Source: Pontimonas sp.
Lineage (GTDB): Bacteria; Actinomycetota; Actinomycetes; Actinomycetales; Microbacteriaceae
Length of the DNA: 64,000 bases
NCBI GenBank assembly: GCA_018402295.1
Contig: JAGYJI010000004.1
Span: forward strand, 1-64,000
Direction: 5' to 3'
In this document: positions 44,683 to 45,691 of the stretch, in pieces
How the letters are laid out: each line of letters begins with the position of its first letter
How positions within the stretch are numbered: position 1 is the stretch's first letter
Translations under genes and position numbers: made by a program
Notes under the pieces: generated by a model
Seen by the model: only the letters and a program-made list of their open reading frames with translations
Databases searched by the model: none
What the model was told of the DNA's origin: nothing

Positions 44683-45691
44683 CTACGGAAGGCTCAAAAC
44701 TCCGGCAATGAGAGCTGGCGACACGTCGCGGGAGCGCGTAATCGCAATCGCCGCGAGAAGTGCGGGAAGTTGCTGGGGAATATCCCACCCCGCCTCACGG
44801 ACTTCCTCCAATGTGGAAATCTCGAGGGCCTGATGGGCACGGTCATCGAGAAAAGCCCGGTCAACAATGATTCCCTCGACGAGCCCGATATCGCTCATTC
44901 CCGGGGAGTCCAGGCCAATACCAATGGCTCGTGCCCCTTCGACAACGTCAGCATCCTGGACCTGTGCCTCGGTCGGTCCGACCCCTTTGCGATAGACGCA
45001 GGCTCGCGTTGTGCCATCAAAGAAAACACCGCTGGCGTCTTCACCTTCAGCTTGGAGTGACACGGTCAACGCCGGGGTCATCAGGCTCTGCGGATACCGC
45101 TGGCGCCAAACCAGTGATTCACGAGACACCTGGACAATGAGCACGTCGTAGGAGCGGGGCTCACGGAGGGCATCCAGTACCGGGGGTGCGCCATACCCGA
45201 CAACCCGAGTCGGAACGCTCGCAGCCTGGAAAATGCGCAGTGCTAGGTCCACGGCAATATCGGTCTCCGCGTCCTGCTGCACCATAATCCAGTCTGCTGG
45301 TTCGCCTGATTTGTCTCTCAGCCGCCAGGCGAGCTCGAGATCTGACCATATCTCGACCCCCATTGTCCCCAGGTTGCTCGATAACCGGGTCCCTCGATCC
45401 GACTCCTGGGGAAACCACCGCCAGATCCCAGGGCACAGACACAGCATCCTGCGCCCTCGCTGCGCCTTCCGGGTCCACAAGCACGCGAGCACCGACCACC
45501 TCCGCAAGCTTGACAAGGTCGCTGGCGGCCTCAGCGGCCATCGCGGTAACCTCGCAGCCCAACTCGCGAAGTGTGTCGACCACGGCAAACCCGGTGTGAC
45601 CCAACCCCACGACGAGGACACGGAGACCCGCCCAGGACGAATGCCAGCTGGTCAACCCCTGGAGGGCGCTCTTACTCAACGACTGAGCCAC
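44683..45691 (-). CDS. MurD-like protein lacking P-loop and C-terminal ligase domain (also frameshifted near 45372)
   Basis: Syntenic with murD; 'VLVVGLGHTGFAVVDTLRELGCEV', 'VEIWSDLELAWRLRD', 'TRACVYRK...DADVVEGARAIGIGLDSPGMSDIGLVEGIIVDRAFLDDR'; TGTNGKT and DHLDWH motifs absent; ends at SLP 65 bp before the ftsW start. Confidence 0.8.

Follow-up and report, generated by a model that had tools for sequence, protein, structure and literature searches.

The MurD2/MurL pathway is known from Xanthomonas oryzae (XOO_1320/XOO_1319) and also from Micromonospora and Salinispora, where MurD2 is encoded beside the epimerase MurL and no glutamate racemase is present; the use of L-Glu by X. oryzae MurD2 is set by two residues, a Glu and an Arg (PMC8788868). 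Microbacteriaceae are absent from the distribution listed for this pathway (PMC8788868), and the genome paper of Pontimonas salivibrio described its set of peptidoglycan genes as largely that of other Microbacteriaceae (PMC6106888). Mur ligases are also known as binding partners. In Thermotoga, MurD, MurE and MurF bind MurG and MreB (PMC6420597), Mur ligases including MurD bind the same two proteins in other bacteria (PMC6420597, PMC4929429), and the Mur synthetases of Mycobacterium tuberculosis interacted with FtsW, FtsZ, FtsQ, Wag31 and a SepF orthologue (PMC3605390; figure correction PMC10965061). Here we analysed a stretch of 64,000 nucleotides (the window) from the marine bacterium Pontimonas sp. 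(Microbacteriaceae), taken from a small metagenome-assembled genome (MAG) of 894 kb in 8 contigs that is 60% complete. In its division and cell wall (dcw) gene cluster, the gene between mraY and ftsW encodes a shortened MurD, hereafter the reduced MurD or MurD shell, which on its sequence features is a non-catalytic MurD pseudoenzyme.

Results

The dcw MurD of Pontimonas has lost its catalytic features

In an alignment with MurD of sister genera, the position of the P-loop TGTNGKTT was occupied by QQDAETDI in the window protein, Gln stood in place of the Glu of VELSS, the carbamylated Lys was gone, and the DH(L/I)DWH stretch of about 12 residues was deleted. The chain ends at the expected start of domain 3, the domain 2/3 boundary, as it does in all genomes of the genus, and the P-loop, the catalytic Glu/His and the carbamyl-Lys are lost in all 19 Pontimonas genomes. 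Pfam and NCBIfam profile searches found neither the Mur ligase middle domain nor the C-terminal domain (PF02875) in the reduced MurD, which scored under the cut-off of the MurD model. The only domain matched was PF21799, the MurD-like N-terminal domain, with 28.0 bits against a cut-off of 27 for the N-terminal part of the window protein, and with matches in 12 of 18 Pontimonas proteins. Alignment and profile search together confirmed an earlier reading made from the letters of the window (the sequence-only reading), which had described a dcw MurD without P-loop, DHLDWH motif and C-terminal domain. The loss of the P-loop argues against D-Glu ligase activity.

The remaining part is predicted to fold as MurD. 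The AlphaFold2 model of the protein from a close relative (L007) had a predicted local distance difference test score (pLDDT) of 89.5 and a predicted template modelling score of 0.88, and its best Protein Data Bank (PDB) matches in Foldseek were MurD (3lk7, E 4e-14, TM score 0.72), corresponding to MurD domains 1-2. A sequence search of the PDB with the protein of another congener returned chance hits only. Compared with canonical MurD, the reduced MurD thus has the same place between mraY and ftsW, the same domain 1-2 fold and the middle-domain tail that is common to it and Microbacteriaceae MurD, but is without the P-loop, the catalytic Glu/His/carbamyl-Lys and the C-terminal domain.

The MurD shell is conserved and under purifying selection

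In 18 other Pontimonas genomes the reduced MurD showed 37-89% identity to the main part of the window protein, and all 18 encoded it with the same architecture in a single open frame of about 330-350 aa. The same state was seen at fourteen loci of named GTDB genomes, and the 66 other Microbacteriaceae loci found in that search carried a canonical MurD of about 490-530 aa with TGTNGKT. Canonical MurD at this locus, which the sequence-only reading had set against its own claim, therefore occurs in sister genera and in none of the Pontimonas genomes. A protein database of 5.8 billion proteins was also searched, and the best 120 relatives were 271-347 aa long; the P-loop and the C-terminal DDSKAT motif were each present in 0 of these 120, and 107 ended in the same LP. 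Many of the 120 were named UDP-N-acetylmuramoylalanine--D-glutamate ligase by JGI, and these names are very likely wrong.

The pairwise ratio of nonsynonymous to synonymous substitution rates (dN/dS) of the whole reduced MurD was 0.05-0.15, and synonymous sites were close to saturation in most pairs (proportion of synonymous differences, pS, 0.6-0.7). Within the genus, dN/dS was 0.02-0.08 in the last third (residues 229-335) versus 0.08-0.27 in domain 1; for the window copy and its nearest relative it was 0.14 in the 5' part and 0.05 in the 3' part. The MurD shell is under strong purifying selection at the protein level, and chance is excluded because of the genus-wide conservation and the low dN/dS. 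ATP binding in the manner of a Mur ligase is not possible for this protein, which also lacks the ligase domain; as its sequence is nonetheless constrained, it most likely has another job. A MAG labelled uncultured Cellulomonadaceae (L106) also has the MurD shell and groups firmly with P. salivibrio in a tree of MraY, MurG and MurC; its label looks wrong.

In the window itself, the gene is split by a one-base frame break near 45,375-45,360, the N-terminal part being the open reading frame from 45691 and the remainder that ending at 44683. On the gene structure the sequence-only reading was right that the gene lies at the murD position and stops at the domain 2/3 boundary, and is corrected here in that the window copy lies in two frames. 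Comparable frame breaks were seen in murC, the 3' end of ftsW, folC, and the MurL and MurF2 genes (described below) of the source genome; the assembly is therefore noisy, and single frame breaks in it are not to be taken as biology. The break conceals no domain, because the 18 congeners with an unbroken frame share the architecture. A sequencing artefact hiding the missing domain was thus ruled out, and the earlier statement that a frameshift cannot account for it holds.

A MurD2-like ligase and a MurL homologue are encoded elsewhere in the genome

A complete MurD-type ligase of 475 aa was found on contig C7 of the source genome, with a TGSKGKST P-loop and a full C-terminal domain (TIGR01087, 298 bits; cut-off 212). 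Directly before it lies a MurL epimerase homologue (NF041275, E about 1e-84; the copy of this genome is split). In an alignment with Escherichia coli MurD, a Glu of the C7 ligase falls on D182 and an Arg on K348, which are the E197/R358 positions of X. oryzae, and homology together with these residues suggests a MurD2-like, L-Glu-using enzyme. This agrees with the earlier suggestion that the catalytic MurD is encoded elsewhere, and a catalytic MurD merely absent from an incomplete genome was ruled out by the presence of MurD2 in the same genome.

MurL was found in 18 of 19 Pontimonas genomes versus 0 of 21 relatives from other genera. The NF041275 match covered nearly the whole model (E about 1e-94 to 1e-103) in 16 of the 18 MurL-positive Pontimonas genomes, and in the other two, including the window genome, it was partial. 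Pontimonas MurL stays below the curated cut-off of this model (700 bits), which was built for Xanthomonadales and whose cut-off was also reached by 0 of 399 Actinomycetota genomes. A glutamate racemase MurI (TIGR00067) above cut-off was found in 0 of 19 Pontimonas and 0 of 13 other MurL-positive Microbacteriaceae genomes, D-amino-acid transaminase not being searched. MurI above cut-off was present in 20 of the 21 relatives from other genera, the remaining one giving a weaker match. The MurD2-like ligase beside MurL and the failure to find a glutamate racemase in the genus bear out the further proposal of the sequence-only reading, that stem-peptide synthesis is remodelled. Pontimonas thus resembles the MurD2/MurL pathway of X. 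oryzae in having MurD2 with Glu and Arg beside a MurL homologue and no glutamate racemase found (PMC8788868), but differs in that the former dcw murD persists as a conserved shell, with the dcw murF reduced too.

The dcw MurF is also reduced

The dcw MurF is about 215 aa genus-wide in Pontimonas and is essentially the C-terminal domain (PF02875 at cut-off). Its dN/dS was 0.10-0.20, and its AlphaFold2 model (pLDDT 89.7) had MurF as best Foldseek match. A further MurF-type gene adjoining ddl, MurF2, was found in 17 of 18 Pontimonas relatives, in 5 of 5 g95 genomes and in G216 (g83), all of them with a reduced dcw MurF; none was found in Microbacteriaceae whose dcw MurF is intact. MurF2 lies beside ddl and gpsA (loci L214:2431-3984 of P. 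salivibrio, L215 and L002) and takes the place of the dcw MurF in Pontimonas, g95 and G216. Its N-terminal stretch reads by eye as membrane segments, so membrane anchoring, unusual for a Mur ligase, is possible. Another MurF-like protein is encoded off the cluster in G062 (g45), where the dcw MurF is also reduced, and in the MurL-positive genomes of g6, g47, g58 and g68 MurD is altered and MurF intact. Between gpsA and MurF2, Pontimonas also has an alpha/beta-hydrolase-like gene (L214/L215). In one genome (G006) the dcw cluster is split over two contigs inside the reduced murF (L041 and G006:C45), which therefore shows as two matches.

MurD pseudoenzymes recur in other Microbacteriaceae

MurL was present in 20 of 300 Microbacteriaceae genomes, from 8 genera. 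The 13 MurL-positive genomes outside Pontimonas belong to 7 other genera; none of them yielded MurI, all 13 had a dcw MurD with lost catalytic residues, and 11 had lost its C-terminal domain as well. The P-loop and domain 3 were both gone in 10 of the 13 (in G227 across a frame break), G278 had lost domain 3 and kept the P-loop, and in G216 and G075 MurD was full length, without Lys at position K348 and with further residues lost. Judged from the sequences, these graded losses look like stages of one process. Genus g6, to which G234 and G278 belong, also includes the MurL-negative genome G023, in which MurI is present and MurD canonical. On the MraY, MurG and MurC species tree the MurL-positive state required at least 4 changes, with MurL taken as absent in the named genomes with canonical MurD, and in the MurL tree Pontimonas formed one group and the other Microbacteriaceae two. 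The pseudoenzyme state arose in several lineages of Microbacteriaceae.

In six MurL-positive Actinomycetota outside the family (G433, G649, G583, G551, G491 and G688), murD has been lost and ftsW comes immediately after mraY (6/6). Because these six outsiders lost murD, keeping the shell is a trait of Microbacteriaceae and does not come with the pathway switch as such. In G529 a candidate murD remnant at E 3.6e-4 was rejected, as no dcw gene was recognised around it or at a second place, and the dcw cluster of this genome was not located.

Layout of the dcw cluster

The cluster lies on the minus strand in the order ftsI, murE, reduced murF, mraY, reduced murD, ftsW, murG, murC, ftsQ and ftsZ (relatives also examined). 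The first bases of the reduced murD are shared with the last of mraY in all genomes, and the gene is upstream of ftsW; a gap of 65 bases lies between its stop and ftsW in the window.

Table 1 Coordinates in the window of the reduced murD, its parts and the surrounding mur and fts genes
Feature	Coordinates	Strand	Description
Reduced murD, whole	45691-44683	-	Between mraY and ftsW; start overlaps mraY end
Reduced murD, 5' part	45375..45691	-	MurD N-terminal Rossmann-like domain (PF21799, E 2.7e-6); frame 1 of broken copy
Reduced murD, 3' part	44683..45402	-	Degenerate middle domain and conserved tail ACVYRKGVG...DRAFLDDR...IAGVLSLP, then stop; frame 2
mraY	45676..46773	-	Upstream neighbour; 3' end overlaps reduced murD start
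ftsW	43404..44618	-	Downstream neighbour; 3' end out of frame in this copy
Reduced murF	46770..47417	-	215 aa; C-terminal domain and short N-terminal remnant; P-loop domain absent
murE, intact	47414..48847	-	TGTNGKTST P-loop, both ligase domains
murC	40847..42258	-	P-loop present; two overlapping frames in this assembly

Discussion

A role as scaffold or regulator, which the sequence-only reading had offered for the remaining copy, is consistent with the purifying selection on it. On our analysis, the MurD shell was probably kept for a scaffold role in a Mur/divisome complex after MurD2/MurL had taken ligation over. With ligation taken over, the constraints on ATP and D-Glu binding would vanish in the dcw MurD, and a second role of Microbacteriaceae MurD, carried by domains 1-2, would have kept the shell in place. 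Most likely domains 1-2 would form a module for protein binding, which either keeps the cytoplasmic Mur enzymes at MraY/MurG/FtsW or connects them with the divisome, and the domain-2 tail, the most constrained part, would be the binding face. In the Mur ligase complexes organised by MurG and MreB the Mur proteins are active enzymes, whereas here only a non-catalytic part is present. A Mur-ligase homologue as subunit of a large complex is known in PAP11, the MurE-like subunit of the plant plastid-encoded RNA polymerase (PDB 8r6s and 9epc among the matches); this is another Mur family in another complex, and a precedent only for the Mur fold as a complex subunit. Several points weigh against the scaffold. 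Selection is looser on the N-terminal domain than on the tail, and the motifs for substrate binding in this domain vary (G-x-G is mostly preserved, SPG is missing in some). Interaction partners were measured for full-length catalytic Mur ligases of other bacteria and are for the shell a precedent only, the activity of MurD2/MurL rests on homology and residues, with MurL scores below a Xanthomonas-trained cut-off, and the genome of the window is about 60% complete.

The same variation bears on a ligand-sensing regulator, whose N-terminal domain would still bind UDP-MurNAc-L-Ala or another UDP-muramyl precursor and tune MurC, MurD2/MurL or MraY. In its favour, most of the Rossmann-like domain with its glycine-rich loop is still present (G and G-F are invariant) and purifying selection on the protein is strong; against it, the glycine loop in its details and the SPG motif differ between members of the genus and domain 1 is less constrained than the tail, so that we consider a sensor unlikely. 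Alternatively, the shell could be the subunit of a composite ligase, pairing with MurD2, MurL or the reduced MurF and needed for their activity or for substrate channelling. The domain missing from the reduced MurD is the kind of domain that the reduced MurF is, and the degeneration of MurD tracks the presence of MurL/MurD2. Such a subunit seems quite unlikely, however, since the four genera with MurL and an intact MurF have an altered MurD without a reduced MurF, recombinant X. oryzae MurD2 and MurL are active without a partner (PMC8788868), and the MurL-positive genomes outside the family have no murD at the dcw cluster.

A functionless, decaying pseudogene left after the MurD2/MurL replacement might be suspected from the frame break in the window copy, the split frames in G227 and the intermediate stages of loss, but the frame is open in 18/18 congeners and the length and end are fixed in the 120 database relatives; with the dN/dS values found this reading was rejected as very improbable. 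Retention of the murD sequence for a role in cis (promoter, mRNA structure or translational coupling for ftsW/murG) and not as a protein would fit the overlap with mraY and the position upstream of ftsW in all genomes. The constraint is nevertheless on amino acids, with synonymous sites near saturation, and with 65 bases between its stop and ftsW in the window the gene is not directly coupled to ftsW, leaving a cis role the least probable of all.

The MurD2/MurL pathway is already known, and the MurD and MurF pseudoenzymes, conserved and recurrent, appear to be undescribed; a search of the open-access literature brought up no earlier account of a MurD pseudoenzyme. The present results extend the predicted MurD2/MurL route to Microbacteriaceae and would explain life without glutamate racemase in these bacteria, and the database entries very likely misnamed as D-glutamate ligases matter for metabolic models and drug-target lists. 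Whether Mur ligases form a physical complex, and by which surfaces it is held, has long been asked, and since the enzymes are essential the question is difficult to test. In these genomes catalysis has moved to other genes and the MurD part is under selection, so removal of the shell should expose a non-catalytic role directly. Extended to the family, the scaffold proposal would be that Microbacteriaceae MurD, and in several genera also MurF, helps to assemble the cytoplasmic Mur/divisome complex, a second and selectable role apart from catalysis, and that the repeated MurD2/MurL switch split both roles and left single-purpose scaffolds; we regard the chances for and against this as even. If true, these single-purpose scaffold proteins would be open to study apart from the essential chemistry.
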